From: a virus
Reading direction: 5' to 3' (one strand)
DNA length: 64,000 nt
Virus record (IMG/VR): IMGVR_UViG_3300042503_000110
Location: 1 to 64,000 of that record
In this document: piece by piece, positions 10,265-42,800 of the stretch
Layout of the letters: each line of letters begins with the position of its first letter
How positions within the stretch are numbered: position 1 is the first letter of the stretch
Translations under genes and position numbers: made by a program
The notes under the pieces: generated by a model
Database searches by the model: none
What the model saw: only the letters and a program-made list of their open reading frames with translations
Told to the model about the DNA's origin: nothing

Positions 10265-11902
10265 ATGGGACTTAGAGTTGCAGTAGCTAATGGAAACTGG
10301 AGTAATCCTAGTACTTGGGAGGGAGGTATTCTTCCTACTGCTACAGATGTTGCAGCAACTAACGGTTTTGTAGTTAATATTGACCAAGATATAACAGTCG
10401 AAGGTCTTACAAACTTAGCCCATTATCCAAGTGCTATTCCTCCTATGGTTGACAATGACTTCCCTGGAGGAGTAGTTACTACGAGTGGTACTTTTGATCC
10501 ATCTTACGATTCTTGGAAAGCATTTAATTTTAGTACTGATACATTCCAATCATGGATTCATACCAATGGTGTTGTCGCAGGTTGGTTGGCTTACGAGTTT
10601 AAAATTCCTAAAGTTATTAATAAATACGTAGTCGTAAGAACATATGCTAACCAACTTGCTAGTATGCCTAGAGACTGGACGTTTGAAGGTTGGACTGGAA
10701 GTACTTGGGTAGTTCTTCATACAGTTACTGGACATAACTCTCTCACTCCTTACACAGGAACATTTACAAATACAACAGCATATAAAAAATACCGTATAAA
10801 CATAACAGCAAATAATGGTGGAAGCTACAGTGCTATTGATTTGATGTATATGGGCCTTACTACGGACCCAACAACTACAAGTAATGTAGGAGGGTCTTTT
10901 ACAGTTACTCCTGGGAGAACAATTACCTGTACTCAAATTGGTTTATTAGGAGGGGGAAATAATGTTCTTATAACTTTAAATTCTACAGGAACTTATAATA
11001 TTATTGGGGACATTATAAAACAAGGAAGTGTTAATGTTTTAAATATTACCGCAAATTGCACTGTTAATATAGTTGGAGATATTAAAGCAACATTTTCGGG
11101 AGGAAGAACAATACAAACTTTTAGTACTTGTACTTTAAATATTACAGGAAATATTTTAGGACCATTTTCTAATAACTCAAATTGTTTGTATTTAGATTCA
11201 GTTGCTGCTGTTTATATTACGGGAAACATTACTTCTAATAATAGAAGCAGTGGCACTGATTATGCGATTTTTATAGTAAATAGTTCTAGATGTGAAATAA
11301 CTGGAAATGTATTTCATAATTATGCTGGCCAAGGAATAATAATAAACAACTCGGGACTTTTAAGAATAGTAGGAACTTTAAATGCAAAAGCTATTAATCT
11401 TGGAGGGTTTCCTGTAATTTACAATGATTATAGCAGTTCAGCCACAAATTTATTTTCTGGTCCCTTTGTTTTTTCAGAGAGTGCACACTCTCCTATTATG
11501 GTAGCAAGAATGAATTTAATCAGAACTTTTAACTCTTACGTAGAGTTTAGAGACAATTCTACAAACGGAGCATTACTTCCAGCACTTCAAGCACCTGCGA
11601 CAAGATTAGTATCTCCAGATACAGTAGCGGATGCTCCAAGTCCAAATAACGTAAGACAAGGAATTGCATACTCTTTAGGTGCTTTGACTGGAACTATGAT
11701 AGTACCAAGTCCAAGTAATGTAGCAAACAACGTACCTGTAGACAACACAGTAGGTACGGCTGTACTAGACGCTAGTTCAATTTGGGCAGTTCCTTTGACT
11801 AACTTAAACATTTTAAATAGTATAGGAAGAAGAGTCAAAAACGCTGCTACGGTAGAAACTACGGGAGCACAAATTCAAGCAACTTTAAACGATAACGAAT
11901 AA
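10265..11902 (+). CDS. Fibre/adhesin with discoidin-like domain, copy 1
   Basis: A 545-residue protein. N-terminal module GNWSNPSTWEGGILPTATD (seen in surface beta-helix proteins), then residues about 70-197 resembling an F5/8 type C (discoidin) sugar-binding domain: WKAFNFSTD, WLAYEFKIPKVINKYVV, PRDWTFEGW, WVVLHTVTG, TAYKKYRINIT. Next comes a right-handed beta-helix-like region of short repeats (NITANCTVNIVGDI, TLNITGNILG). The last 100 residues match a widespread fibre tip: DVRQG-like, LTGTM..PSPSNV, VPVDNTVGTAVLDA, NSIGRRVKNAATVETTG. Its stop overlaps the start of its paralogue (TAATG). Probable receptor-binding protein. Confidence 0.75.
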   Translation: MGLRVAVANGNWSNPSTWEGGILPTATDVAATNGFVVNIDQDITVEGLTNLAHYPSAIPPMVDNDFPGGVVTTSGTFDPSYDSWKAFNFSTDTFQSWIHTNGVVAGWLAYEFKIPKVINKYVVVRTYANQLASMPRDWTFEGWTGSTWVVLHTVTGHNSLTPYTGTFTNTTAYKKYRINITANNGGSYSAIDLMYMGLTTDPTTTSNVGGSFTVTPGRTITCTQIGLLGGGNNVLITLNSTGTYNIIGDIIKQGSVNVLNITANCTVNIVGDIKATFSGGRTIQTFSTCTLNITGNILGPFSNNSNCLYLDSVAAVYITGNITSNNRSSGTDYAIFIVNSSRCEITGNVFHNYAGQGIIINNSGLLRIVGTLNAKAINLGGFPVIYNDYSSSATNLFSGPFVFSESAHSPIMVARMNLIRTFNSYVEFRDNSTNGALLPALQAPATRLVSPDTVADAPSPNNVRQGIAYSLGALTGTMIVPSPSNVANNVPVDNTVGTAVLDASSIWAVPLTNLNILNSIGRRVKNAATVETTGAQIQATLNDNE

Positions 11903-13605
11903 TGGCAGCAATCGTAGCAATAAAAAGTGGCAACTGGAATGATCCTACTGTTTGGCATTTAAGTAGAATACCCGAAGTAGATGATGTAGTTTATGCAAGT
12001 GGTTATACTGTAACTGTAAATATAAGTACAACTGTTCGACGAATTTCAAATAAAGCTTCTACGGGATTTAGTGCTGTTCCTATTATGACTGGGTATACTA
12101 CTCCTTCAGGTATAGCAAGTTCACTAACTAGATACGATGACAATAACTATCAACCTTGGAAAGCTTTTGATAATACTACTTCTACTGAATGGATTGGAGT
12201 TAGCGGAAGACCATTACCCGAGTGGTTACAATATGAATTTGTTAGTCCTAAAATTATAATAGGTTATTCAGTTCAAAATATTACTTATAATGGAGATCGT
12301 CCTACGAACTGGCAATTTCAGGCTTGGGATGGAACAAATTGGGTTGTTTTAGATACTGTAACAGGTGCTCCCTCCCAAACAACTCCTTATGTAAGAACTT
12401 TTACTAATTCTACAGCTTATTCTCGATATAGAATCTATATCACTGCAAGTTTAAGTACAAATTATGTGGCAATATCTGAGTTAAGATTATTTGAAACTAT
12501 AACAGACGCACAAAACGCTGCAAGTGGCGGAGGATTTATTTTAAATCCAAACGTAAGTTTAAATTGTACTGAATGGATTGAAGCCTCTAACGTTACTATA
12601 TTAACTTGGGCTGGAGGAGCAGGAACAACTAGTTCAGTTACTAGCCCTATTTTATATGCAGCAACTGCAGGCAATACTTTTGTTATTAATGGACAAGGAA
12701 CTTTAAATGTTAATATTGCCTCTACTACGACTCAAGGCGGAAGCACAAATATTTATTTTATATCTAATACAGGCACAGTTAACTTAGTTACTAATATTAC
12801 TCCATTAACTACAGCAAATACTGGTGGAAGAATGGTTTATATAAGTGCCAATGCGCTTGTAAATATTACTGGAGATTTAACAGGAGTATTTAGAAATATG
12901 GGTATGGTCCAAATAACAAGTAATTGTACCGTTAATATTGTAGGTACTGTTACCTATACTGATGTTTCTTATCCTTTTGATATTAACACTTCTATTTGTA
13001 CAATGAACATAACAGGAACAGTGCGCAGCGCTGTAAATGCAACTATTTCTCTAGGAATAGTAGTTTACAGTAGTATTGTTTTGACTATTGTTGGACCTAT
13101 TATAAGTCAAGGAAATACCGTCCCTTTGTATTTACCTTCAAATAACTCAATTGCTCTTCTTTCAGGTCCCTTTGTGTATTCACCTTATGGATATAGTCCT
13201 GTTTGGGCTTCTAGATATCATTTGATTCCAAGTACAACTACTTATATTGAATTTGCAGACTCAACTACAGGAGGCTTACCTTTTCCAGGAGCTATAGCAC
13301 CTAGAGCACAGTTTATTTCTCCATCAGCAAGTAGTGATAGTCCTGATCCAGAAGATGTTAGATTTGGAGTGTCTTATGCTTATAATTCTCTTACAGGAAC
13401 TTTGCGCATGCCTCATCCTAACCAAGTAACCTACGGAGTAGCAGTAGATAATACTTTTGGTAACGCAGTACTTACCGCAGCTTCTGTATGGGATTATCTA
13501 GTCTCAAACATTACTACAGAAAACAGCATAGGTATGAGATTAAAGAACGTATCTACTCCCCAAACTACGGGAGAACAACTTGAAGCATTCTTGCGCTTAG
13601 AATAG
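11902..13605 (+). CDS. Fibre/adhesin with discoidin-like domain, copy 2
   Basis: A 567-residue paralogue of the preceding gene with the same domain order: GNWNDPTVWHLSRIPEVDD start; discoidin-like domain at residues about 66-197 (WKAFDNTTS, WLQYEFVSPKIIIGY, PTNWQFQAWDG, TAYSRYRIYIT); beta-helix-like middle (NALVNITGDLTG, SNCTVNIVGTV); and the same tip (EDVRFGVSYAYNSLTGTL, VAVDNTFGNAVLTA, NSIGMRLKNVSTPQTTG). The middle has diverged while both ends are kept, as expected for duplicated receptor-binding proteins with different targets. The TAG stop lies just before the next promoter. Confidence 0.75.
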   Translation: MAAIVAIKSGNWNDPTVWHLSRIPEVDDVVYASGYTVTVNISTTVRRISNKASTGFSAVPIMTGYTTPSGIASSLTRYDDNNYQPWKAFDNTTSTEWIGVSGRPLPEWLQYEFVSPKIIIGYSVQNITYNGDRPTNWQFQAWDGTNWVVLDTVTGAPSQTTPYVRTFTNSTAYSRYRIYITASLSTNYVAISELRLFETITDAQNAASGGGFILNPNVSLNCTEWIEASNVTILTWAGGAGTTSSVTSPILYAATAGNTFVINGQGTLNVNIASTTTQGGSTNIYFISNTGTVNLVTNITPLTTANTGGRMVYISANALVNITGDLTGVFRNMGMVQITSNCTVNIVGTVTYTDVSYPFDINTSICTMNITGTVRSAVNATISLGIVVYSSIVLTIVGPIISQGNTVPLYLPSNNSIALLSGPFVYSPYGYSPVWASRYHLIPSTTTYIEFADSTTGGLPFPGAIAPRAQFISPSASSDSPDPEDVRFGVSYAYNSLTGTLRMPHPNQVTYGVAVDNTFGNAVLTAASVWDYLVSNITTENSIGMRLKNVSTPQTTGEQLEAFLRLE

Positions 13606-13607
13606 AC

Positions 13608-13637
13608 TTGACTTATTTTTTTAAAGGTTTATATTTG
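13608..13637 (+). promoter_or_regulatory. Promoter for the lysis/secretome operon
   Basis: TTGAC with TTG at 13608-13610, 19 bases, then TATATTTG at 13630-13637. First start at 13661. The next eleven genes are packed with gaps of at most five bases or with overlaps, and no terminator is visible before 21726, so this one promoter probably serves the whole operon. Confidence 0.75.
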
Positions 13638-13660: not shown

Positions 13661-13909
13661 ATGAAATTTGTAAATTTTATTGGAGGTCTTTTCAAGGATG
13701 AAAAAGGCAATGTCTCCATGAAACGTTTGTGCGGATTGGTATGTACTCTTACTCTTTGCGCAACGTTGTACGCTAACTCTTTTACAGAGTCTCACTTTGC
13801 TCCATCTACTCCTTTGGTAGATGCTGTAGCATTACTTGCATTTGGCACTCTCGGGCTCACAAGTGCCGAAAAAATTCTGAAAAAGAAAGAAGGAGACTCT
13901 GCTGAATAA
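13661..13909 (+). CDS. Holin-like small membrane protein
   Basis: An 82-residue protein with two likely membrane helices (residues about 22-40, LCGLVCTLTLCATLYANSF, and about 52-68, VDAVALLAFGTLGLTSA), a short periplasmic loop and a basic C-terminus (EKILKKKEGD). Size and topology suit a class II holin, which would open the inner membrane for lysis. It is first in the operon and two genes ahead of a cell-wall enzyme candidate. The separation by a homing endonuclease gene suggests the two were once adjacent. No direct holin signature exists, so this is by topology and context. Confidence 0.6.
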   Translation: MKFVNFIGGLFKDEKGNVSMKRLCGLVCTLTLCATLYANSFTESHFAPSTPLVDAVALLAFGTLGLTSAEKILKKKEGDSAE

Positions 13910-13911
13910 AC

Positions 13912-14610
13912 ATGGCTTATGTCTACAGACATATCAGGTTAGATAAGAATGTACCTTTCTATATTGGATTAGGTACAGATTCTAATTATTCTAGAGCACA
14001 TCAAACTAAAAGTAGAAATCAACACTGGCATAATGTTGTAAAACACTCTGAGTATAGGGTAGAGATTATGTTAGACGATTTATCCTTTGAGGAGGCTTGT
14101 GCAAAAGAAATAGAACTGATAAGTGTGTATGGCAGAGTAGATACTTGTGGAGGTACTCTAGTTAATTGGACTGATGGAGGACAAGGTACTTTAGGTTGGA
14201 GACATGAGATAGGTTACTGGACAGGTAGGACTTTACCAGAATCTATGCGTAAGAATCTATCTGAAGTTGCTAAGTTAAGAGTAGGAGAGAAGAATCATTT
14301 TTATGGGAAATCTCACTCCGAAGAAACAAAAGAAAAACTTAGACAGTCTAGACTAGGTAGTGCTCTTCCAGAAGAAACTAAACTTAAAATAAAAGAGTCT
14401 TTAAAGAACTCTGAAGCTTTTAAGAATAGAGTTCAGGCTGTTAGGCTAGGGGCAGACAATCCTAAATCTAAACAAGTAATCAATACCGAAACAGGAGAGA
14501 CTTATGAGAACCTTAGAATAGCTTCAGAAATTACTGGAATAAACTACGATAAACTAAGATCTTACTGCCAAGGAAAAGTAAAAAGTAAAACAAATTGGAG
14601 ATATAATTAA
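13912..14610 (+). CDS. GIY-YIG homing endonuclease
   Basis: A 232-residue protein. Residues about 3-95 form a GIY-YIG nuclease domain (VYRHIRLDKNVPFYIGLG, later ELISVYGRVDTCGG and LVNWTDGGQG). The next part has NUMOD3-type DNA-binding repeats (GEKNHFYGKSHSEETKEKL and a second related copy). The C-terminus is a NUMOD1-like helix-turn-helix (TGETYENLRIASEITGI). Such enzymes cut an unoccupied allele and spread by repair. It is a free-standing gene fitted with two-base spacers between the holin-like gene and the endolysin candidate, without disturbing either frame. It is probably a selfish insertion. Confidence 0.85.
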   Translation: MAYVYRHIRLDKNVPFYIGLGTDSNYSRAHQTKSRNQHWHNVVKHSEYRVEIMLDDLSFEEACAKEIELISVYGRVDTCGGTLVNWTDGGQGTLGWRHEIGYWTGRTLPESMRKNLSEVAKLRVGEKNHFYGKSHSEETKEKLRQSRLGSALPEETKLKIKESLKNSEAFKNRVQAVRLGADNPKSKQVINTETGETYENLRIASEITGINYDKLRSYCQGKVKSKTNWRYN

Positions 14611-14612
14611 TC

Positions 14613-15263
14613 ATGAACTATACTAGAGAACAAATCGAAGCCGCAGTAAAAGCCAAGGGCTATGTTTACTTTGATGGCGCAAAAGACTATGATGTAAATA
14701 TCATAGGTGTACGTAATTCTTCTACTGGAAATGATGTTACCAACCTATTTGATGACACCATGACTGTTGCTTACAAAGTAGCAGGTAAATGGGTATTTCA
14801 TCAATGGCAAGCTACTACCGATCCTGGAACAAAAGGTGTTATGCAGTTCCATAACCCTGGCGGAGTAGCGCGTCTAGTTGCTGGTCAATATCGTGGAAGC
14901 CACGCTATTGGGTTGCACCAAGGAAAGTATGAAGCGTTGAAACAAAAAGCAAACGTAAAAGTTTACCGTGACGCTAACAAAGACATGACTTATGATGAGT
15001 CTAAAATCACTGAAGGTGTGTATGGTATTAACATCCACAAAGCAGGTGCAGATTCTACATTTGTAGAGAACTGGTCTGAAGGATGTCAAGTATTCAAACG
15101 TGAAAAAGATTTTAACCAATTTATGGAAATCATGCGCCAAGCACGTGGTGTCCATGGTAACTCTTTCACTTACACTTTGATTGAGTCTGGGGACTTTCTT
15201 GCCGCAGACAAAGCAGCTGGAGAAGCAAAGAAAGCAGCAAAAGCAGCTAAGGCAAAAAAATAA
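14613..15263 (+). CDS. Putative endolysin-type cell-wall enzyme
   Basis: A 216-residue protein starting MNYTREQIEAAVKAKGYVYF. Its core has YKVAGKWVFHQWQATTDPG, HNPGGVARLVAGQYRG and then INIHKAGADS...WSEGCQVF. The His followed 13 residues later by Ser-x-Gly-Cys is reminiscent of the L,D-transpeptidase (YkuD) active site 'H-x(13-16)-[ST]-H-G-C', with Glu in place of the second His. There is no signal peptide, as expected for a holin-dependent lysin. The C-terminus is a Lys/Ala-rich helix. The holin-like gene two genes upstream supports a lysis role. The exact reaction is not certain. Confidence 0.55.
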   Translation: MNYTREQIEAAVKAKGYVYFDGAKDYDVNIIGVRNSSTGNDVTNLFDDTMTVAYKVAGKWVFHQWQATTDPGTKGVMQFHNPGGVARLVAGQYRGSHAIGLHQGKYEALKQKANVKVYRDANKDMTYDESKITEGVYGINIHKAGADSTFVENWSEGCQVFKREKDFNQFMEIMRQARGVHGNSFTYTLIESGDFLAADKAAGEAKKAAKAAKAKK

Positions 15264-15722
15264 ATGAAAAATTGGAAGGCCCTTTGTAGTCTTCTTTTCT
15301 TAGTCAACTCCTGCTTTTGTCAAACATTGTCAAAGGCAGGGGATGGCTGGGACTTAAAAATTGATTCGGCAATCAACCTAATTAAAAACTATGACATTGA
15401 TAAGTACATAGTTTTTACTGAAGTCTGTGAGCGGATTGATTTTTGGAACAGTTCTTTTTCTTCCACAGGTATAGTTGAAGGTCGCTATACCATACTTGTA
15501 GCAGATGCAGACATTAAGTTAAATTCAATTAACAACTTAGCCTGCGTCTTAGTTCACGAAAGCCAGCATCTTTTCTACGCAAAAGAAGGCATTGTTTTAA
15601 GTGAAGCGGAAGAAGAATATAAATGCTACATGTACGAGTTGTCCTTCATCAAAAACATTCCAACCCCTGAGCCATGGTTACTGGCAAATCTTTATGAAAA
15701 ACTGCAAAAATATAGACAATGA
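15264..15722 (+). CDS. Exported small HExxH metallopeptidase-like protein
   Basis: A 152-residue protein with an N-terminal export signal (KNWKALCSLLFLVNSCFCQ). Cysteine at 17 after LVNS could be a weak lipobox, so it may be a lipoprotein or be cut by signal peptidase I. The motif LVHESQHLFYAKEG at about residues 94-107 is a zinc-peptidase HExxH, and the acidic helix SEAEEEYKCYMYE 15-20 residues later could give the third ligand, as in small gluzincins. It is therefore a candidate secreted protease working in the host periplasm or envelope. Its start directly abuts the previous stop, and its TGA overlaps the next ATG (ATGA). Activity is not proven. Confidence 0.55.
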   Translation: MKNWKALCSLLFLVNSCFCQTLSKAGDGWDLKIDSAINLIKNYDIDKYIVFTEVCERIDFWNSSFSSTGIVEGRYTILVADADIKLNSINNLACVLVHESQHLFYAKEGIVLSEAEEEYKCYMYELSFIKNIPTPEPWLLANLYEKLQKYRQ

Positions 15723-17608
15723 AAAAACTAATTCTATTTGTAGTCGGGGTAATAACCTTGGCTACTAACCTATTTGCACAAAGTGCAAACACTTCTCCAG
15801 GTACGGGCCATTGGGTTGTTATTGACTCAGGCTATCAAGTAGCTACAACTACTGTAGGACAAACAGTAGCTCCACTTCATTTTTACAACACTTCTACTTC
15901 TGAAAAGATCACAGGTATGCAGTTTCGTGTATTCTACGACAACACTGCATTTACTGCTGTAGTGCCTTCCTTAAAGATCTCTACTTCAGACCAATACCTT
16001 CAGTATGTAGATAGTAACGCACAGGGATTCTTAACTGTAACTTTAGCGTACACAGGTTCTAGTGCTAGTTTTAACTATTCTAACGGAGCAACTTTTGACC
16101 TGACTTTCACTCATGCTAGTAGTGCTATTTGGAACAACTTAGATTCTATTAAGACTATGAAAGTTGCAGGTGTTAAATCATTTGCAAACAAAGCTGCTAC
16201 TAACTGGGGTAACGACACTACTTTGGTAGTTTACTCTTACGGAGGTCGTTTCAATCAGAAAGTTTTAAGATTCGCTGCTAAGTTCAAAAACGTTACAGGC
16301 TCTGATGCTAAGAGTTTGTGGGTGTCTTTAGAAAAGAAAGCACCAACTGGGTCTTGGACTCAAGTAGATGCTAAGGCAACTAACTCTGTAGGACATGTTG
16401 TGTTTAGAGAATTTTTAGATACTACATATTGGGATGTCCGCATGGTTGTTAAAGGAGACACAATGACTCCAGGTAACGTATTCTCTACTGCGGATGCACA
16501 GAAGATTAACCAATCTATACTAGGTCAATACACTCCCTCAGGCTTTGATTACTACACAATGGATGTAAATGGAACTACTGGAGACATTAATATTGCTGAC
16601 GTATACTCTGTGTATGGAAGATTAGCTGGTAGATTTACTTCTTGGCCTAACTCTAAGAAAGACGTAATGTTCTTTACTGTCGCTGAGTACAACGCAATCA
16701 ACGGGGCTACATCTAACTTAACTTCAACTTATGCTACTGTAAATAACTTTAATTACACTATTGACGGTAGAGACTCCATTACCTATTACGTAGCAGTAAA
16801 AGGAGACGCAAACTCTACAGGATTTAAGATGGCTCGTTTGACTCCTATTAAAATTGTCAACCAAGCAAATGCTAAGAAATACATTATTGACCAAACAGTA
16901 TCTTATGACAATCCTACTTTAGATAAAGTAGAAATCAACATGCCGAAAATTACCGTGGAGAGTGGAAACTTAGTAAACGTACCAGTTAAAGTTCTTACAA
17001 ACGGAAAATCTTTGGGCGCTCTTCAGTTAGATCTTAAATACGACACATCTTACTTAGAGTTTAAGAACATTGAAATGACTGAAAAATTAATGAAGTGGAC
17101 TGCATACACTAATCCTTCAGGAGGAATTGTTTCCTGGGGAGGAGCAGACTTAACTAACACTAATCTATTGGTTGATGGAGAACAAGCATTTACCTTACAG
17201 TTTATTGCTAAAAAACCACAAGACTCTTGGGCAACCGCAGCTATCTGGACATCTGAAAAATACGTAGGTGATGACAAAGCAAAAGACATGGTAATCACTC
17301 CTACTATGGGTATCGTAGAGGTGCGTAGAAAAGGCACAGTAGCAATGAAAGATATTTCATCTATGCTGGCGTTTCCTAATCCTACAGTAGATTACGTAGA
17401 GATTCATTTTAAAGTAGAAGAAGAAAGCCAAGTTGATTTATCTCTGTACAACGAAGTAGGTCAATTAATTGAAACTATCTTACATACAAAAATGCCTAAA
17501 GGGTCATACCAATACACTACAAATCTAGAAAGATTATCTAATGGAACTTACATTTTGGTACTAAGAACAAACAAACAGTTACTAAATTCTAAACTATTAA
17601 TTATATAA
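15719..17608 (+). CDS. Secreted cohesin/dockerin-like protein with T9SS sorting domain
   Basis: A 629-residue protein. Signal peptide at residues 1-20 (KKLILFVVGVITLATNLFAQ). Residues about 37-150 and 410-500 look like cohesin-type beta sandwiches (the second has NVPVKV, then SLGALQLDLKYDTSYLEF). Residues about 254-308 are dockerin-like with two calcium-loop halves (FSTADAQKINQSILG and DVNGTTGDINIADVY, then GRLAGRF). The last 80 residues (551-629) form a type A T9SS C-terminal domain: FPNPTVDYVEI, VDLSLYNEVGQLI, LSNGTYILVL, ending in KLLII. Known T9SS cargo is moved across the outer membrane and anchored or released. A T9SS signal in a phage protein is unusual. The same dockerin-like module recurs in the gene at 20300. 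Confidence 0.75.
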   Translation: MKKLILFVVGVITLATNLFAQSANTSPGTGHWVVIDSGYQVATTTVGQTVAPLHFYNTSTSEKITGMQFRVFYDNTAFTAVVPSLKISTSDQYLQYVDSNAQGFLTVTLAYTGSSASFNYSNGATFDLTFTHASSAIWNNLDSIKTMKVAGVKSFANKAATNWGNDTTLVVYSYGGRFNQKVLRFAAKFKNVTGSDAKSLWVSLEKKAPTGSWTQVDAKATNSVGHVVFREFLDTTYWDVRMVVKGDTMTPGNVFSTADAQKINQSILGQYTPSGFDYYTMDVNGTTGDINIADVYSVYGRLAGRFTSWPNSKKDVMFFTVAEYNAINGATSNLTSTYATVNNFNYTIDGRDSITYYVAVKGDANSTGFKMARLTPIKIVNQANAKKYIIDQTVSYDNPTLDKVEINMPKITVESGNLVNVPVKVLTNGKSLGALQLDLKYDTSYLEFKNIEMTEKLMKWTAYTNPSGGIVSWGGADLTNTNLLVDGEQAFTLQFIAKKPQDSWATAAIWTSEKYVGDDKAKDMVITPTMGIVEVRRKGTVAMKDISSMLAFPNPTVDYVEIHFKVEEESQVDLSLYNEVGQLIETILHTKMPKGSYQYTTNLERLSNGTYILVLRTNKQLLNSKLLII

Positions 17609-17612
17609 AACT

Positions 17613-17963
17613 ATGAGTTTAAAGAACAAACTTGGCTTCGGCCAAGCAGAACCCGTAGCAGTCGAGCCTAACAATAGGTTTTATTACATGCTACAACAGA
17701 TGCAAGCTAATCGTTGGAGAATTACTGCCATCGTATTAGGTTTATTTTTCTTCATTATTGTTGGGATTAACTCAGCAGTATTCTTTGGAGTCGAGATTCA
17801 AGAATCTTGGAAAGAAATGTTACTTATCCTTTTTGGAGCCTTTGTAGGTAATTTGAACAAAGTAGTAGACTACTGGTTTAATTCAGAAGACCGCGACAAA
17901 ATGCTTATTCAAAAAGTAGATGAGGAGGATGGAGTATCTTTGTCTAACACAACTAACTCTTAA
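17613..17963 (+). CDS. Small two-helix membrane protein
   Basis: A 116-residue protein: soluble N-terminus of about 35 residues, two membrane helices (ITAIVLGLFFFIIVGINSAVF and EMLLILFGAFVGNLNKVV), then a charged tail (SEDRDKMLIQKVDEEDG). It resembles phage membrane proteins of the holin/antiholin class and could be a second holin or an accessory to the exported proteins around it. It lies within the tightly packed operon, with four-base gaps on both sides. No family is firmly recognised. Confidence 0.5.
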   Translation: MSLKNKLGFGQAEPVAVEPNNRFYYMLQQMQANRWRITAIVLGLFFFIIVGINSAVFFGVEIQESWKEMLLILFGAFVGNLNKVVDYWFNSEDRDKMLIQKVDEEDGVSLSNTTNS

Positions 17964-17967
17964 TATT

Positions 17968-18288
17968 ATGTCAGAAGAACAAGAAGGCGGAATGTCTGGA
18001 GTAAAGAAAGCTATTATCGGAGCCATCACCACCGCAGTTACTGCAGGTGGTGCTTGGTTCGCTACTACTTTAGGTGGTGGAGAAGAGAAAGATAATACTC
18101 CAACAGCTGTAACAGCGCCCGCACCCGTAATCAACATTACTAACAGTAATGAGAATCAACAGAAGCAACAAAATAATGGCGGTGGCAACACTGTAATTAT
18201 TAAGGAAAAAACAGTTCCTGCTCCTGCTCCTACCCCTGCGACTGCACCAGCTTCTAAACCTCCAGCAGATGAAGAAGATCCTTGGTAG
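17968..18288 (+). CDS. Single-span protein with proline-rich tail
   Basis: A 106-residue protein (MSEEQEGGMSGVKKAIIGA). An in-frame ATG at 17920 would overlap the previous gene; the start at 17968 gives a tidy four-base spacer. One membrane helix (AIIGAITTAVTAGGAWFATTL), an Asn/Gln-rich stretch (NSNENQQKQQNNGGGN), then a Pro/Ala linker (VPAPAPTPATAPASKPP) and acidic end DEEDPW. A membrane anchor plus extended Pro-rich segment is the layout of TonB-like or inner-membrane spanin proteins that span the periplasm. The gene overlaps the start of an outer-membrane lipoprotein gene by 20 bases, as spanin pairs often do. The function is inferred from layout only. Confidence 0.5.
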   Translation: MSEEQEGGMSGVKKAIIGAITTAVTAGGAWFATTLGGGEEKDNTPTAVTAPAPVINITNSNENQQKQQNNGGGNTVIIKEKTVPAPAPTPATAPASKPPADEEDPW

Positions 18289-18958
18289 CCTATTGATTGT
18301 AATCCTTGTCTATGGTTGTGGTTCTATGAAGACCACAACCGAGGATGAGGTTATTGAGAAAGCAGACATCTCTACTGTCTCTAACTATACGGACTCTATC
18401 AAGAGAACCGTACAAGTTATTAGTATGGACATGACTAAAGTATTGGCTATGTATCCAGACTTGCAAGAGAAGAACGTAGGGTTAGGTTTTGCGGAATCCG
18501 TATTAGATTATTTAGATGAGACAAATCGTTTTGTATTTACTGAGGAAAAGGGTGAAATCAAGGAAAGGATGGTAACTCAGTTCAAAGCCTCTAAAAAAGG
18601 AGTCTTTGAAGAACCCATTGATGGCAAAGGAAAGATCAAAGCAGCACAATACTTTGTGTATGTGACTGTGGCAGATTTTGCCGTAGATGAAGACGAAACT
18701 GTAGAAGGAGCTAAAGCTAAAGTAGTTGTTACTACTTTTATCCGTTTACAAGTTCGTTTTGTAGATGCAAAAACAGGACAAATCTTTATTGGCTCAGGAG
18801 AAGGAGAGTCCACTAAAACTGGAGAATCTTTTCTTAAGTCGCTAGACGGAATGAAATTTTCTCAAAGCACAGTAGGTAAGGCTACACGTAAATCACTAGA
18901 AACTGCTACAACTAAAGTGATTGAAAACCTTATCAAGAACGGTGTCTTTAAGAGTTAA
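18269..18958 (+). CDS. CsgG-like outer-membrane lipoprotein
   Basis: A 229-residue protein with a lipoprotein signal (MKKILGSLLIVILVYGC; lipidated Cys17). The body resembles the CsgG family that forms the curli secretion pore: NVGLGFAESVLDYLDETNRFVFTE matches the 'G.g....e.l...L..t.rF.v.er' pattern, followed by AAQYFVYVTVADFAVDED, then IRLQVRFVDAKTGQIF and a C-terminal helix VGKATRKSLETATTKVIENL. CsgG monomers assemble into an outer-membrane ring. Other members of this broad family are plain periplasmic lipoproteins, so pore formation is not assured. It overlaps both neighbours. A phage-encoded CsgG-like protein next to a putative barrel protein is notable. Confidence 0.6.
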   Translation: MKKILGSLLIVILVYGCGSMKTTTEDEVIEKADISTVSNYTDSIKRTVQVISMDMTKVLAMYPDLQEKNVGLGFAESVLDYLDETNRFVFTEEKGEIKERMVTQFKASKKGVFEEPIDGKGKIKAAQYFVYVTVADFAVDEDETVEGAKAKVVVTTFIRLQVRFVDAKTGQIFIGSGEGESTKTGESFLKSLDGMKFSQSTVGKATRKSLETATTKVIENLIKNGVFKS

Positions 18959-20303
18959 CATATTAATCTTGTTTATGTGTATAGGACTGAGTTTAAACGC
19001 TCAGTCCTTTACATATTCGTACACAGACCCGTGTACAAAAGAGCTAAAGTTTATATTCGCAGATATGAACTCTCCTATAGTGATTAGTTACTATGGGCAA
19101 GTCAGAAGTTTTAATTACGCAGAACTTCAGGATGGTACATTTGACAATTGGTTAAATAGTACCTACTTGAATTTTCGAAACGCTAAACCCTGCGAAGGAG
19201 TATTTTCAACAACTACAACCACTACCTCAACTAATACAGTAACATCTTTAGTTAGTAGTGTGATGAATTTAAACTCAATATCTAGTTTAGATTTATCCTC
19301 AACTTCTATGGGATCTAGTACCTCTATAGGAAGTACAACATCTTCAGGAACAACAAGTACAGACAGTAAAAATGAAAGTTCGAACGACAAGCCCAGTAGC
19401 AATGGAGATAATAATTCTACTGGTAATTCTGGGGATAACTCTGGTCAAGGTGGCGAATCATCTGGACAAGGGTCCAATACGTCGCAAGGACAAGTAAGTG
19501 TTGGGAGCAAATCTAAGGGAGGCTCTGGCGGAAGTGGTGGAAGTGGCGGAGAGGGCGAAACTCCAGCCGAAGAAAAAACCCCTGAAAAAATTGAAGAACA
19601 AAAGTCCGAAACCCAACAAGCAGGCGGAAGTGCGTCTGCAAAGTCAGCAGCAAAAGGTAAAGTAGAAACACAGAAACCAGCTATCCTAGTTACAGGAGAC
19701 ATTGTAGGTGTTCAGACAGTTAAAGACCAAGCACAAGACGCGCGTGGTACTATGTCTTTTACTCGTGTTAAAGGAGATGGCACAGCTTCAATTGGATTGT
19801 CTGCTGACTATATGGTTAATGCAAAGATTGGAAACTTTAACGGTATGCGATCTTGGATGGGCGTTAACAAAAAAGGACACAAGCACATTAACGTATTATC
19901 TGCGGGAATTAACTTAATGCCTAGGTCTTACAACGGCTCATTGCTTTTTGTAAGAGTAAACTCGCTTAAAAACTTTACAGCTCTGTACGGAGCAGCCGCT
20001 TCTTACGGAGAGTTATTTAAAGAAGAAGTAATCTCTACTCTTCTTATAGGAGGTTTTATGTACAAAGGACAACTAACTAAACATATTGACGCTACCATTA
20101 TCGCAGCTAGTGTGTACGCACCATACACAAAATACTACACTGAGAGTTTGTTTGAGTCTCAGCCTATTATAGTTCCGTTCCTAAACATTAACTATTCTAT
20201 AACTAAGACTTTTAAATTTGGCTTAACCGCAGGAGGTACGTATATCGCAAACCAGGATATAGTAAACTATCAAGTCTTAATGGGAGGTAAACTAAAGATA
20301 TGA
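18921..20303 (+). CDS. Exported protein with low-complexity linker and putative OM beta barrel
   Basis: A 460-residue protein. Export signal at residues about 1-27 (basic start, then VNILILFMCIGLSLNA). A small N-terminal domain (SYTDPCTKELKFIF, ISYYGQVRSFNY) precedes a Ser/Thr/Gly-rich stretch (residues about 95-245, including GGSGGSGGSGGEGE and a charged EKTPEKIEEQ). Residues about 265-460 alternate polar and hydrophobic amphipathic strands (ASIGLSADYMVNAKIG, INVLSAGINLMP, FKFGLTAGGTYIA) and could form an 8-10-strand outer-membrane barrel. The N-terminal part would then sit on one side of the outer membrane. The start overlaps the lipoprotein gene by 38 bases, which supplies the basic n-region of the signal. 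Confidence 0.55.
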   Translation: MKTLSRTVSLRVNILILFMCIGLSLNAQSFTYSYTDPCTKELKFIFADMNSPIVISYYGQVRSFNYAELQDGTFDNWLNSTYLNFRNAKPCEGVFSTTTTTTSTNTVTSLVSSVMNLNSISSLDLSSTSMGSSTSIGSTTSSGTTSTDSKNESSNDKPSSNGDNNSTGNSGDNSGQGGESSGQGSNTSQGQVSVGSKSKGGSGGSGGSGGEGETPAEEKTPEKIEEQKSETQQAGGSASAKSAAKGKVETQKPAILVTGDIVGVQTVKDQAQDARGTMSFTRVKGDGTASIGLSADYMVNAKIGNFNGMRSWMGVNKKGHKHINVLSAGINLMPRSYNGSLLFVRVNSLKNFTALYGAAASYGELFKEEVISTLLIGGFMYKGQLTKHIDATIIAASVYAPYTKYYTESLFESQPIIVPFLNINYSITKTFKFGLTAGGTYIANQDIVNYQVLMGGKLKI

Positions 20304-21283
20304 GATGGCTGATTGTTCTTTTTTTATTCTCGTCTCCTCTAATAGCACAATTTACCTATTCGGGATATCTCTATAATGCGAATGGTTCTGGCGCAGCTAA
20401 CGTGGCTGTTAAACTGTACAGAAGAACAAACTCAACCATTGCAGGATTTACTAACCAACAAAATTATAATGGACACTCTTACTATCGTTCTACTGGAAGT
20501 GCTACTTGGACTACTGCTAGGTCTAACTGTGTAGCTATGGGTGGACACTTAGTAACCATTACAACTTCAGGTGAACAATCATTTATATTTAATATATGGC
20601 CTTCAGGATGGATAGGACTAACAGATGAAGTCAGTGAAGGTACTTGGAGATGGGTAACAGGAGAAACTTATTCTTATACTAACTGGAACTCTGGAGAACC
20701 AAACAATGCAGGTAATGAAGACTACGTACAGTTTGTATCTAATGGAAGGTGGAATGACTTACCTAACAACTACAATCTTCCTTATGTACTAGAGTTTGAA
20801 TATTTAGTTACAACTTCTTCTTGGACTCTCTATAAAACAATCTATACTAACTCTTCAGGTTATTATTCTATTTCAGAAGCCTACGATCCATCAAAGGAAT
20901 ACTATATTCAGATAGATGCGCCTACCAGAGTTCAAGCCTACACCAATGCAGACATACAAAACATTTCTAATATTATCTTAGGTAAGACTACAATTAACGG
21001 TCTTACCTATCATAGATTTGATCTTAATGACGACGGGCGAATAAACATAGCTGACAAGTATTATCTATCTGGTAGAAAGGCAGGAAGATTTAATCGGTGG
21101 AAAACTGCACCTGATGTAAGAATCTTCACACTTGCTCAGTATAATGCTATAGTCGCATCTAAAGTAAATGTGCGCACAACTTACCCTGGAGTAGCTACAT
21201 TTACAACCTCAACACTTACTACAGGAGGAACACTAAACTTATATCTTATTGCTCCAGGGTACTCAGGACAAGTAACTTATTAA
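20300..21283 (+). CDS. Secreted C-type lectin with dockerin-like module
   Basis: A 327-residue protein. Signal peptide about residues 1-16 (RWLIVLFLFSSPLIAQ). A carboxypeptidase-regulatory-like beta domain (GYLYNANGSGAANVAVKLY) begins and, after the lectin, appears to resume (IYTNSSGYYSISEAYDPS), so the C-type lectin domain (residues about 54-172) is inserted in it. The lectin has GWIGLTDEVSEGTWRWVTGE, the calcium/sugar motif EPN in NSGEPNNAGNEDYV, and WND in GRWNDLP. Residues about 213-267 are a dockerin-like module (TNADIQNISNIILG, then DLNDDGRINIADKYY and GRKAGRF) clearly homologous to that in the gene at 15719. No T9SS tail is present. Predicted to be exported and to bind glycans. Confidence 0.7.
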   Translation: MRWLIVLFLFSSPLIAQFTYSGYLYNANGSGAANVAVKLYRRTNSTIAGFTNQQNYNGHSYYRSTGSATWTTARSNCVAMGGHLVTITTSGEQSFIFNIWPSGWIGLTDEVSEGTWRWVTGETYSYTNWNSGEPNNAGNEDYVQFVSNGRWNDLPNNYNLPYVLEFEYLVTTSSWTLYKTIYTNSSGYYSISEAYDPSKEYYIQIDAPTRVQAYTNADIQNISNIILGKTTINGLTYHRFDLNDDGRINIADKYYLSGRKAGRFNRWKTAPDVRIFTLAQYNAIVASKVNVRTTYPGVATFTTSTLTTGGTLNLYLIAPGYSGQVTY

Positions 21284-21285
21284 CC

Positions 21286-21726
21286 ATGAAAAAACTAATT
21301 ATAATTCTCACAGCTGCTATTACAGCATCGTTAAGCGGTCAATGTTACAAAATTGACACAGTTAGAAATCACACACAGATGAAGGAACTTGCAGGGAGAC
21401 CTGTAGATTTTGGAATTGTAACAACAGCCGAACAATTAATTGCAGATAAGTATAGTATTTGTGACACAGGCATTAAGGTAGACTTAGCACTAAACACTAT
21501 TGGTATTCCAGAAAGAATAATTAACATTGCAGGAATCCAGTTACTAAAAAGAGACTATATAGTAAATATGTCCATTACTGCTAATAACATTACACATTAT
21601 TCTAGGCACATTAAGACAGTTTACGTAAATGCAATGTTCTTAACTGTAGAGCAAATTCCTCACAATAAAAAAGCCTATTCAAAAGCAGTTGAGAAGTGTT
21701 TAATAGATTTAGTTAAGAAGTTATAG
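21286..21726 (+). CDS. Small exported protein, function unknown
   Basis: A 146-residue protein with an N-terminal signal (KKLIIILTAAITASLSGQ) and cysteines at about 20 and 58. The mature part is mixed alpha/beta (GIQLLKRDYIVNMSITANN, HIKTVYVNAMFLTVEQIP) and ends in a basic helix AVEKCLIDLVKKL. The strand-then-helix ending is vaguely like small periplasmic lipoproteins of the LptE/CsgG-accessory sort, but I recognise no family. It is the last gene of the exported cluster, with a two-base gap to the lectin gene. Confidence 0.5.
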   Translation: MKKLIIILTAAITASLSGQCYKIDTVRNHTQMKELAGRPVDFGIVTTAEQLIADKYSICDTGIKVDLALNTIGIPERIINIAGIQLLKRDYIVNMSITANNITHYSRHIKTVYVNAMFLTVEQIPHNKKAYSKAVEKCLIDLVKKL

Positions 21727-39011: not shown

Positions 39012-39844
39012 AGTACGAGCACATAAACTTCATATCTTCTGAGCCTCTTATTGCGGAGGTTAAACAAGAGCTTAAAAGTTACTTTGAGTCAGGGGCTATC
39101 TCTGAAGTTTTAGTACCTACTTTCATAGACCAGGCTTTACGTAAGTTAAAGGTAATGGTGCTTACTCCAGAGGATGTTGTATTGCACTTTGTAAATTATA
39201 AGTCTGAGTTGCCCTGCAACTTTGCTCTTTTAGATCGAGCAACATTGTATGATTCTGATATTACGTTCTCTTCAGGTATGACATCTCTTAAGGGGTACTG
39301 GTATCAATCTTACGAAGTTCTAGAAGGCTGCGTAGACTGTACTCCTAAGACGGAATACTTTGAGCAGTTAATGATTCCTACTCCTGGCTTTAAAATAACT
39401 ATGAAGAATCCAAAGTGGGTAAGAGTTTATCACGGATCAAAAGCTTTATGTACTGAAGGTTGTCCTAACCTAAACGAGCCTAGTCCTGATATTATCCAAA
39501 TACACGATAACAAAACAGTTAGTTCTTCTTTTGAAGAGGGCTGTGTGTACGTAAGATATTTCTCTAGACCAATGGATGATGATGGAATCCCTACTGTGCC
39601 TGAGATACTTGAGGTCGAGGAATACGTTAAATCTTATATGAAGTTTAAATTCTTTGAAATGTTGTGGCACTCACAGATTGACGAAAGTGCAGCACAGGTA
39701 GAACGAAAATTTCAATACTACAAACAAGATCAATTAAATAAACTACAAGCTGCCTTTGCTTATCTTTTGACTAAGACTAAACAACAAAGTGCGGACAGTG
39801 TAGTAAAAGGACGTAAACAGTTTGTTAAGTTTCATATCAAGTAA
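39008..39844 (+). CDS. Tail/ring structural protein
   Basis: A 278-residue protein (MKYEHINFISSEPLIAEVKQ). N-terminal helices (VLVPTFIDQALRKLKVMVL), a beta region with paired cysteines (GCVDCTPKTEYF, CTEGCPNLNEP), and a long C-terminal helix pair (YVKSYMKFKFFEMLWHSQI, AAQVERKFQYYKQDQLNKLQ). It fits the crAss-like series of ring/tail proteins just before the giant stump protein. Its TAA overlaps that ATG (TAATG), indicating coupled translation. Confidence 0.6.
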   Translation: MKYEHINFISSEPLIAEVKQELKSYFESGAISEVLVPTFIDQALRKLKVMVLTPEDVVLHFVNYKSELPCNFALLDRATLYDSDITFSSGMTSLKGYWYQSYEVLEGCVDCTPKTEYFEQLMIPTPGFKITMKNPKWVRVYHGSKALCTEGCPNLNEPSPDIIQIHDNKTVSSSFEEGCVYVRYFSRPMDDDGIPTVPEILEVEEYVKSYMKFKFFEMLWHSQIDESAAQVERKFQYYKQDQLNKLQAAFAYLLTKTKQQSADSVVKGRKQFVKFHIK

Positions 39845-42800
39845 TGGAGAATAAAATAAATCAGAACCTCATTGGTCTTAATTTAGATGCTATTACTTGG
39901 CAAGTAAAGGAAAACCAAATTACGTGGGCATTGAACGCAAACATTCAAGCGCACGATGGAGATTCTATTACCTATACAAATGAACCAGGAAACACTCCTT
40001 GTTACTCTTTTACGGAAGGGCAATTAGCGGGATTTAAAGTTGTAGGATTTACTAACATTGTAGAGCAATCTAAAGTTATTTTATTTCTTACTCACCCTGA
40101 TGGAAGATCTCGTATAGGACAAATTACTTCGATAAATGATTCTTGTCTTGACATAGAAATAACTGAAAAGGACTGTGGTTGTAAAGAAGGAACTGTAATT
40201 ACTGAAGGAGTAGTTGTATCTAACTTACCTAACGTAGAGATTATTCCTACCTGTCCTGATGGATATTATTATGACCCAGCAGACCAGCTCTGCAAAAGAA
40301 TCCAATATGCTCAGCCTGAGATACAGAAAGAAACATTTGTTCTAACAGCAACTAATAACTCAGCTTTTGGATTTATGAATCCTGTCCTCTATGATGAAGG
40401 CTGGAACTCTAGAGGTTGGGGTGGTAATGGTTCTTTTAATAATGGAATAACCCGTCTAACTCTACCTTGGTGGAGATTCAATGGGACACCAGGAAATCCT
40501 GGACGTATTAACGAAATAGCTGTAAGAATTTCTTCAGGGTCTGTTGTAAATACTTGGTTAAGTTTTACTACTACTTTGTGTGTGGCTGAAGAGAAAGTAT
40601 ACTACTTTGCTATTGCAGCAGACAATGCTTTTAGAGCAAAGTTAGATGGTGTTACTATTCTTGACCCGACTTTATCTTCTTTGTATGATATCTCTGGATT
40701 AGAAGACCAATGGAGAACAAATGTATTTGGTTCTCCTACAGCAGTCAATGCAGATCGCATAGGCTATGGTATGCTTCACATCTACCCATTAAGACTTACT
40801 GCGGGAAACCATATTCTACAACTTGAGTATGTTGACTATGGTACTCCTCAAATGATTGCTGCTGAGATTTACGATAATACTCATGCTGAGATAATCGCAG
40901 CTACTTCTATTGGAGACCTTGATTTAATTTGGACTACCGACAACCAAACCCAAGTAGAATCTATAACAGCAATAGACTGCCCTGATGGATACACTTTAGG
41001 AGCAGATGAAGATTGTAATTTAAGTTGCGTACTCAAAATTGAGAGTGAACCTACTTATGTACAAAGCGCACCTTCTTGTTGTAAGTACGAAGACATTGTA
41101 GTCGATGACTGCCAAGATATTTGTCCAGACTCTTGCTATGAATACGTAGTAGGATTTATACCTAACAATGCTACTGTTGTAGTGGATGGGGTTACTACTG
41201 TTATTCCCGACCCTGTATCAAGTATTGAGAAGACATTTAGTTACGTTGATTGTTTAGGTAATCCTGTTTCAAACTTTATCTTAGGAGACAATAAAAGATT
41301 CACAGCAAGAAAAGGAACTCTTGAACTAAACCACAAGAGGCTTATCATCTTCCAGGAAACAAAAGTTATTGACCCAGCAACTCCTACATTCTCTAAAGAC
41401 AACTGTTGTTTAAAGTTTGATATTGCATTTCCTATCAATGCAGAATATCGCATAGACGAGTGTGAGACTAAAATTTATTATGTAGGACGTAATATTCCGC
41501 CTAGATACTTCTCTATTGAATATCCTTACGGAAGAGATTCCTGTGGAAATTCTAGAGATTGTATTAAAGACTCTTGCGAAGACTCTAAGTTGTTTCCTGA
41601 CTTCTGTATTCCAGAAGTTCACGCAACTAGCGTAGATAGTAACGGACAGTTAAAAGCAGGGGTTTATTCTTTTGCCATAGCTTATGCAGACGAGCAGGGA
41701 ATTGAACTTACTGACTACTGTGACCTTACTAATCCTATTCCTGTATTTGAGCGTAGCATTACTGAACAAACAGAATACGTTACTTCTAAGTCAATAAGTG
41801 TACAAGTTCAGCATAAGACTAGAATCTTTGAATACTTTAACTTAGTAGTAGCTGAGAACGTAAACACAGTTACTAACTATCACTTAGTAGGAACCTACAG
41901 AGTAAATCAATACACCGACCAAGATACGTTGACTTACACAGGGGACTTTAAATCTACGTTCTCTTCTATTGTACCTCTTATTAGATCTCCTCACTATGAG
42001 ACTGCAAACATTATTGAGAAACAAAACGACATCTTAATGATTGCAGACCTAGAAGAGTTTCCTAAATTTAACTTTCAACCGTTTGCCTCTAAGCTGAATC
42101 TTTTCTGGGAGACAGTAGAGATGCCAGCAGATAATGATTTAGACTACTCTTCTCCCGAAGTTGCCTACTTCTTCCGCACTTATCAGCGTGACGAGGTGTA
42201 TGCTTTTGGTATAAAGTTTAGATTAAAGAACGGAAAGTATACAGACGTATTCCATATTCCTGGAAGAAGACCTGACTCCAATGATCTTGAATTAGAATCT
42301 TCTGCTACAAACAAAGACGTATTTGTAGCCGAGACTGATTGTTTGATTCCAGACTCTTCTCCTAGATGGAAAGTTTACAATACCGCAGGATTTGGTGGTT
42401 CAGTTTTAAAAGACCCTGACTTAGCTAACGATATTGAAAAACAATACAACTGCGCTATTACTGTACACGAGCGTGGACAGTTTGCTTATTGGGAATCTAT
42501 TGATGTGTATCCTTGCTACGATGAAATTTGGGAACAATCAACTGACCCTAACGCACCTTACTTTAATCCAGATGCTTTAGCGGGTAAACCTATCCGTCAC
42601 CATAAGTTTCCTGACTCTGCAATTTCGCACATTCACGGAAACAAAAGATTAACTACAGAGTTATTCAACGACCAAATAGGAAACGAATCTACTAGTGTAC
42701 TATATCCTGTAGGAGTTCGTTTAAATGAAGAACTAATTGTTGCGCTTCTAAACGAAAAACTACCTAACGGTCAATACAAACACACAGTGTTTGATCCCAT

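Follow-up and report, generated by a model that had tools for sequence, protein, structure and literature searches.

In this study, we analysed a window of 64,000 nucleotides, positions 1 to 64,000 of the IMG/VR virus record IMGVR_UViG_3300042503_000110 (78,728 bases), and specifically a block of eleven plus-strand genes at 13661-21726 that is bracketed by two Bacteroidota-type promoter motifs. We propose that this operon encodes a self-assembling adhesin that would be built outside the infected Bacteroidota cell, late in infection and alongside the lysis proteins, a reading to which we give about an even chance. Its two central components are a scaffold protein with cohesin and dockerin regions and a type IX secretion system (T9SS) sorting domain, and an adaptor protein in which a dockerin is joined to a C-type lectin head. 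Cohesins, dockerins, C-type lectin and T9SS signal are the key content of the operon, and none of them was in the original prediction, which had been made from the letters of the window and had described a set of exported envelope proteins tied to lysis genes.

The scaffold, encoded by gene 15719 (genes are named by their start as called, Table 1), is scaffoldin-like in its domain order: signal peptide, cohesin-like domain 1, immunoglobulin (Ig)-like domain, dockerin, cohesin domain 2 and T9SS sorting domain. Cohesin was matched by PF00963 in two stretches at 4e-11, above the Pfam cut-off, and a Foldseek search with the AlphaFold model of the scaffold returned mostly cohesins at the top (6kgc 1.8e-8, TMt 0.72), the matches coming from the better domains of the model. 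The sorting domain also matched the solved sorting-domain chains 8glj_D and 8glk_D, and it was the sole T9SS domain found in the whole record. The scaffold therefore has the two marks of T9SS cargo, a Sec signal and a C-terminal sorting domain above the curated cut-off. Among the long phage records searched, the sorting domain was present in 13 of 14.

The adaptor is encoded by gene 20300. When a profile of its dockerin was compared with the PDB, the best matches were cellulosomal dockerins (2y3n_B 0.004, 4fl4_A 0.038), and the residues of the calcium loop were invariant across 33 homologous dockerin segments. The dockerin part stays constant among adaptor homologues and the heads vary, being a C-type lectin, PA14, GEVED or an unknown domain of ~200 aa. 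For example, between the loci L006 and L008 the scaffold and the neighbouring module genes are 97-100% identical and the homologues of the small membrane protein gene 13661 are 89% identical, with an adaptor at 55% and a head at 21%. The head was likewise swapped between near-identical modules in the pairs L045/L094, L059/L092 and L044/L047. We also considered a diversity-generating retroelement as the source of the lectin variation and rejected it, the heads differing by whole-domain exchange and not by point variation; the 78.7-kb record, possibly incomplete, gave no RVT_1 match to a reverse transcriptase.

Cohesin-dockerin architecture with heads of carbohydrate-binding type could also serve nutrition, as a small cellulosome helping the infected cell to capture polysaccharide, and the T9SS cargo of Cryophage does include glycoside hydrolases (PMC7468147). 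However, no glycoside hydrolase or other polysaccharide-degrading enzyme was found in the ten adaptors scanned, and the position of the operon is lysis-linked and presumably late. We regard such a nutritional surface complex as very improbable.

Export of these proteins was predicted from their N-termini. In the window, 48 non-overlapping plus-strand open reading frames (ORFs) reach 70 aa or more. Strongly hydrophobic N-termini occur in seven of them, all seven in this operon (the membrane protein 13661 and the products of 15264, 15719, 18269, 18921, 20300 and 21286). In 15264, 15719, 18921, 20300 and 21286, a predicted signal peptidase I-type signal is followed by Gln at +1; a Gln directly after the cleavage site is the Bacteroidetes Q-rule (PMC5837995). 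Together with the lipobox of 18269, these five signals bear out the six exported proteins of the original prediction, which had counted two small membrane proteins besides them where we found three (13661, 17613 and 17968). The A/G/S/C-Q pattern past the hydrophobic region was kept in 90-100% of unique homologues in the families of 15264, 15719, 18921 and 20300 and in 51% of those in the 21286 family, and among 68 homologues of 18269 the lipobox was kept in 58. Phage adhesion proteins, too, can carry C-type lectin and PA14 domains, which would suit a scaffold and adaptor that become adhesion fibres on the phage particle. Against such a decoration of the virion stand the conserved Q-rule Sec signals, the lipobox and the T9SS tail, which imply that the proteins leave the cytoplasm, the site of head and tail assembly; we consider this reading scarcely credible.

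The layout of the block agrees with a single operon. Neighbouring genes are separated by 0-4 nt or overlap, as expected from the eleven tightly packed genes described earlier; the ORF listed at 17920 has its true start at ATG 17968 (MSEE...), as in most homologues. After the promoter motif at 13608, no further plus-strand motif appears until 21795, and the block therefore fits one transcription unit behind one promoter, as had been proposed. Among the relatives checked, the motif again stands ~55 nt ahead of the first gene in L002, L005, L008, L010, L031 and L076, and it was absent at L017, L041 and L071.

Of the loci fetched for the comparison between phages, we counted as informative the 70 in which scaffold and adaptor are both present. 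All 70 also have homologues of 17968, 18269 and 18921, and the order scaffold, 17968-homologue, 18269-homologue, 18921-homologue, adaptor was kept in 69. The same block was thus found in related genomes, a check that the original prediction had suggested. The window record itself belongs to the crAss-like phages by its homologous TerL, portal and major capsid protein (MCP): its TerL is 27-30% identical to those of crAss-like phages and 30% to that of Cellulophaga phi17:2, and portal and head matches were obtained in PHROG. Some block carriers with a crAss-like TerL are 75-80% identical to the window TerL, others ~29%. The block also occurs in phages that are T4-like by TerL/MCP, including the isolate Immutovirus immuto. 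Since the scaffold of the T4-like modules is 71-73% identical to that of the window, the block has moved between phage lineages. Among named phages, a DNA-level search came back empty and protein-level searches gave only immuto.

A host-derived operon was also considered and rejected. A search of 84,980 bacterial and archaeal genomes with the lipoprotein 18269 gave 3 matches. Two were on short contigs of 12.6 and 16.5 kb, and the third lay beside phage genes on a long contig, so the block looks phage-borne. The short contigs with the module, L128 and L130, belong to metagenome-assembled genomes (MAGs) filed under Sphingomonadaceae and Flavobacterium and are probably phage contamination of the bins. 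The contig L129, 254 kb long and binned in a Bacteroidetes MAG, has the module beside phage genes and is an apparent jumbo phage.

Immuto, a T4-like myovirus of Flavobacterium sp. LMO8, carries a divergent copy of the block at gp013-gp019. The lectin-dockerin protein gp013 is placed before gp014, which consists of a signal peptide, an N-terminal cohesin-like region and a dockerin region, and gp015, in which a separate signal peptide precedes a cohesin (5.9e-9) and a T9SS domain (2.4e-8). Because the parts of gp014 and gp015 are fused into one scaffold in other phages, they would act together. By analogy with cellulosomes, this layout is one of anchor, adaptor scaffold and effector. The GenBank record of immuto already names lectin and cohesin domains.

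The module keeps company with lysis genes. It adjoins a homologue of 13661 in 63 of the 70 loci. In crAss-like phages it follows the holin-like gene and the endolysin, and in other phages it is followed by a holin-like gene and an unrelated PG_binding_1/GH19 endolysin; one or other of two non-homologous endolysins usually accompanies the block. With holin-like and endolysin genes as its neighbours, the block should have its coat in place at the moment of bursting. The nearest annotated endolysin of immuto lies ~9 kb from the lectin-scaffold genes, and we rejected a purely lysis-linked operon on the ground that immuto has no endolysin beside the block. The same distance bears on the earlier wording of a block "fused to" a lysis cassette: its synteny with lysis genes was upheld, the fusion was not.

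The gene pair 17968 and 18269 gives this neighbourhood a second possible meaning. An AlphaFold2 model of the 18269 lipoprotein was used for Foldseek, and the leading PDB hits were all CsgG (6l7c 1.3e-7, 4uv3 7.9e-7). The Pfam CsgG match (0.018) was below the cut-off, and the assignment of the curli-pore fold is therefore a claim at the level of the predicted fold. No Pfam match to CsgF, CsgE or CsgA/B repeats was found within the operon. The predicted inner-membrane protein 17968 and the lipoprotein 18269, whose genes overlap by 20 nt beside the endolysin, match the layout of a two-component spanin. The block could therefore be an outer-membrane rupture machine, the Bacteroidota counterpart of spanins, in which these two proteins would span or perforate the envelope after the endolysin while scaffold and adaptor grip the surface layer. 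The i-spanin/o-spanin-like topology, the predicted CsgG fold, the lysis or pinholin role proposed for phage CsgGF (PMC9004378) and a synteny that persists despite unrelated endolysins all agree with it, and the synteny together with the spanin-like pair makes it a serious rival. However, 18269 is a protein of 229 aa with a globular CsgG-type model and not a short proline-rich o-spanin, the nearest annotated endolysin of immuto lies elsewhere, and a T9SS-exported cohesin scaffold with swappable lectin, PA14 and GEVED heads makes little sense for breaking membranes. On balance, we consider a rupture machine rather unlikely.

The exchangeable heads could instead bind the host's own glycan or receptor, so as to block superinfection and spare the progeny from the debris of the mother cell. 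Such masking has a precedent in T5 Llp, which is thought to protect progeny from debris of the infected cell (PMC4728585), and it would suit the late position beside lysis genes and the tail-fibre genes that adjoin the module in crAss-like members. In the window, two adjacent paralogous tail proteins (phrog_17517; 10265-11902 and 11902-13605) lie directly upstream of the promoter, and this fibre region varies strongly among relatives whose modules are near-identical. However, head type showed no correlation with adjacent fibre type in 22 phages (partial correlation -0.01, permutation p = 0.49), in a test that is indirect, the adjacent fibres standing in for the true receptor-binding protein. 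Moreover, a few conserved head types are common to unrelated phages, whereas receptors should track fibres. That head type does not follow fibre type is a mild argument against receptor-matched exclusion or masking, which we judge unlikely, and we rejected the idea that adaptor specificity follows the tail fibres. The envelope assembly tied to lysis genes of the original prediction thus gains T9SS, cohesin and dockerin domains, a predicted CsgG-fold lipoprotein and lysis synteny across unrelated phages in its favour, and any of its three suggested roles, exclusion, adhesion or breaking, may be the right one.

If the operon does encode a late surface adhesin, Sec would export the scaffold, the dockerin adaptor and the helper proteins by the signals seen in their sequences. 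The T9SS of the host would then read the C-terminal sorting domain and fix the scaffold on the cell surface. There, the scaffold cohesins would bind the adaptor dockerin and perhaps also the dockerin of a further scaffold, which would give chains, and the adaptor would present its exchangeable ligand-binding head, in this phage a C-type lectin. From their predicted localisation, the inner-membrane proteins, the CsgG-fold lipoprotein and the linker protein 18921 may form an envelope-spanning base or an exit route. Finally, and this is the weakest step, the coat would attach the dying cell, or the debris it leaves, to neighbour cells or to polysaccharide, and progeny would be freed beside new hosts ("sibling capture"). 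A bolder version is conceivable but doubtful: polymerising cohesin-dockerin chains with interchangeable lectin heads, put on the surface via the host T9SS and timed to lysis, would capture the next victims as a virus-encoded cellulosome-like organelle, the module being a mobile unit common to unrelated phage lineages.

Several points weigh against a surface adhesin. The placement on the cell surface is predicted, and the T9SS of the host is presumed. The Dockerin_1 match is below the Pfam cut-off both in the window and in L025 (0.0067), and of the two repeats the second has a canonical loop and the first is degenerate, without a calcium loop. The AlphaFold model of the scaffold is of low confidence (mean pLDDT 58), and no T9SS domain was detectable in the divergent scaffold of L130. 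The synteny with lysis genes suits a lysis role equally with a late adhesin. Furthermore, the OM43 myophage Melnitz, with CsgG/CsgF but without fibre genes, gave no clumping (PMC9004378).

Table 1 Features of the operon and its promoter in the window.
Feature	Position	Strand	Evidence or description
Promoter motif TTG-N19-TATATTTG	13608..13637	+	Bacteroidota -33/-7 pattern
Small protein (13661)	13661..13909	+	Two hydrophobic stretches
NUMOD3 homing endonuclease	13912..14610	+	Pfam PF07460 8.3e-9, phrog_314 2.1e-25
Endolysin-like protein	14613..15263	+	phrog_33083 endolysin 1.2e-13, phrog_3000 1.6e-35
Small exported protein	15264..15722	+	Signal peptide followed by Q at +1; HExxH motif (HESQH) and a later Glu, all invariant
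Scaffoldin-like protein, 629 aa	15719..17608	+	Pfam, TIGR04183, Foldseek
Dockerin region within scaffold	16481..16633	+	Calcium loop DVNGTTGDINIAD
Cohesin domain 2 of scaffold, residues 405-524	16931..17290	+	Pfam PF00963
T9SS type A C-terminal sorting domain	17372..17602	+	PF18962 6.6e-11 (above cut-off), TIGR04183 6e-9
Small protein	17613..17963	+	Two hydrophobic stretches
Single-span protein	17968..18288	+	Pro-rich tail ending DEEDPW
Lipoprotein, 229 aa	18269..18958	+	Lipobox; AlphaFold2 model pTM 0.67
Exported linker protein	18921..20303	+	N-terminal domain, Ser/Gly-rich linker, conserved C-terminal domain
Adaptor, 327 aa	20300..21283	+	Signal peptide, split Ig-like domain, C-type lectin, dockerin, C-terminal module
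C-type lectin head (exchangeable part), residues 68-163	20501..20788	+	Pfam PF00059 3e-17
Adaptor dockerin	20924..21103	+	Calcium loop DLNDDGRINIAD; Pfam Dockerin_1 (PF00404) 0.11
Small exported protein	21286..21726	+	Conserved in 68/70 modules

The remaining proteins of the block were assigned as follows. By its size, topology and position, the product of 13661 appears holin-like, and it gave no Pfam family match. The homing endonuclease 13912 is missing from most relatives and is a passenger outside the conserved block; NUMOD3-type homing endonuclease genes were also seen inserted elsewhere in the same operon, near the 17613 homologue, in L003, L030 and L032. The product of 15264 is a candidate secreted zinc metallopeptidase, as H98, E99, H102, E117 and E118 are invariant in 26 sequences, and it gave no family match above the cut-off. 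The 17613 product is predicted to lie in the inner membrane. For 17968, hydrophobicity and charge suggest an N-in orientation with a periplasmic tail, and the terminal W of this tail is invariant in the sequences compared. The C-terminal domain of 18921 may be an outer-membrane beta-barrel (p = 0.056 in an alternation test), and no PDB or Pfam relatives of this protein were found. A CsgG/LptE-type fold for 21286, suggested by eye, was dropped after a profile comparison with the lipoprotein gave a probability of 6%.

Some further observations were made in the same genomes. Within or beside the module, two loci encode a 387-aa low-complexity protein rich in Ala, Glu and Ser, with a small membrane partner (L052:12261-13421 and L124:972-2132). 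The closest named terminase (40% identity) is that of Leptolyngbya phage Lbo-JY46 (PP438436.1), recorded from a cyanobacterium; the other relatives infect Bacteroidota, and the recorded host may deserve checking. No scaffold match was found in Lbo-JY46. The window also contains two very large ORFs, 39844-46020 (2058 aa) and 54145-60513 (2122 aa), the latter without a PHROG match.

If the proposed adhesin is real, viruses would use cohesin-dockerin assembly, hitherto known as cellular, to rebuild the host surface shortly before killing, as a second solution beside the curli modules of pelagiphages. It would account for the joint passage of lysis genes and a conserved block of eight envelope genes between crAss-like and T4-like phages, and would make phage-driven aggregation of aquatic Bacteroidota cells testable. 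With immuto and its host Flavobacterium sp. LMO8 both available as isolates, genes could already be removed and binding tested, and the naturally exchanged heads provide a collection of binding modules for one common dockerin socket.

Phage T9SS cargo, phage curli modules and the domain names of immuto were already known. In the literature searched, which covered few subscription journals, no paper on a phage cohesin-dockerin system came up, that of immuto included, and thus we found no earlier description of a phage cohesin-dockerin surface scaffold. The curli modules of pelagiphages and Melnitz, with proposed roles in sibling capture, superinfection defence and lysis control (PMC9599517, PMC9004378), resemble the present block as a multigene envelope or surface set that moves between unrelated phage families and includes a lipoprotein of CsgG type, in the present block by predicted fold. 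Those type VIII secretion system (T8SS) modules, however, use CsgF and CsgA/B amyloid repeats, undetected in this operon, which instead has a T9SS-sorted cohesin scaffold, dockerin adaptors with exchangeable heads and Bacteroidota-type export signals. In Cryophage, likewise a phage of Bacteroidota, T9SS type A sorting domains are found in genes that are very variable among close relatives, one of them with PA14, but its cargo includes hydrolases with their own sorting domains, and no cohesin-dockerin pairing, operon or lysis linkage was described for it (PMC7468147). T5 Llp is, as predicted here, a phage protein on the surface of the infected cell, but it is just one small lipoprotein, paired with a protein receptor. 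The immuto block differs from that of the window in a scaffold split in two, a T4-like myovirus as carrier and an endolysin located elsewhere. Finally, the CipA/OlpA-type scaffoldins of Clostridium thermocellum share with the predicted viral system surface-anchored cohesins, a dockerin-bearing adaptor scaffold with an effector, and matching domain folds, whereas the block described here is virus-encoded, has two cohesin-like domains and no enzymes found, and relies on a T9SS sorting domain in place of SLH or sortase anchoring.

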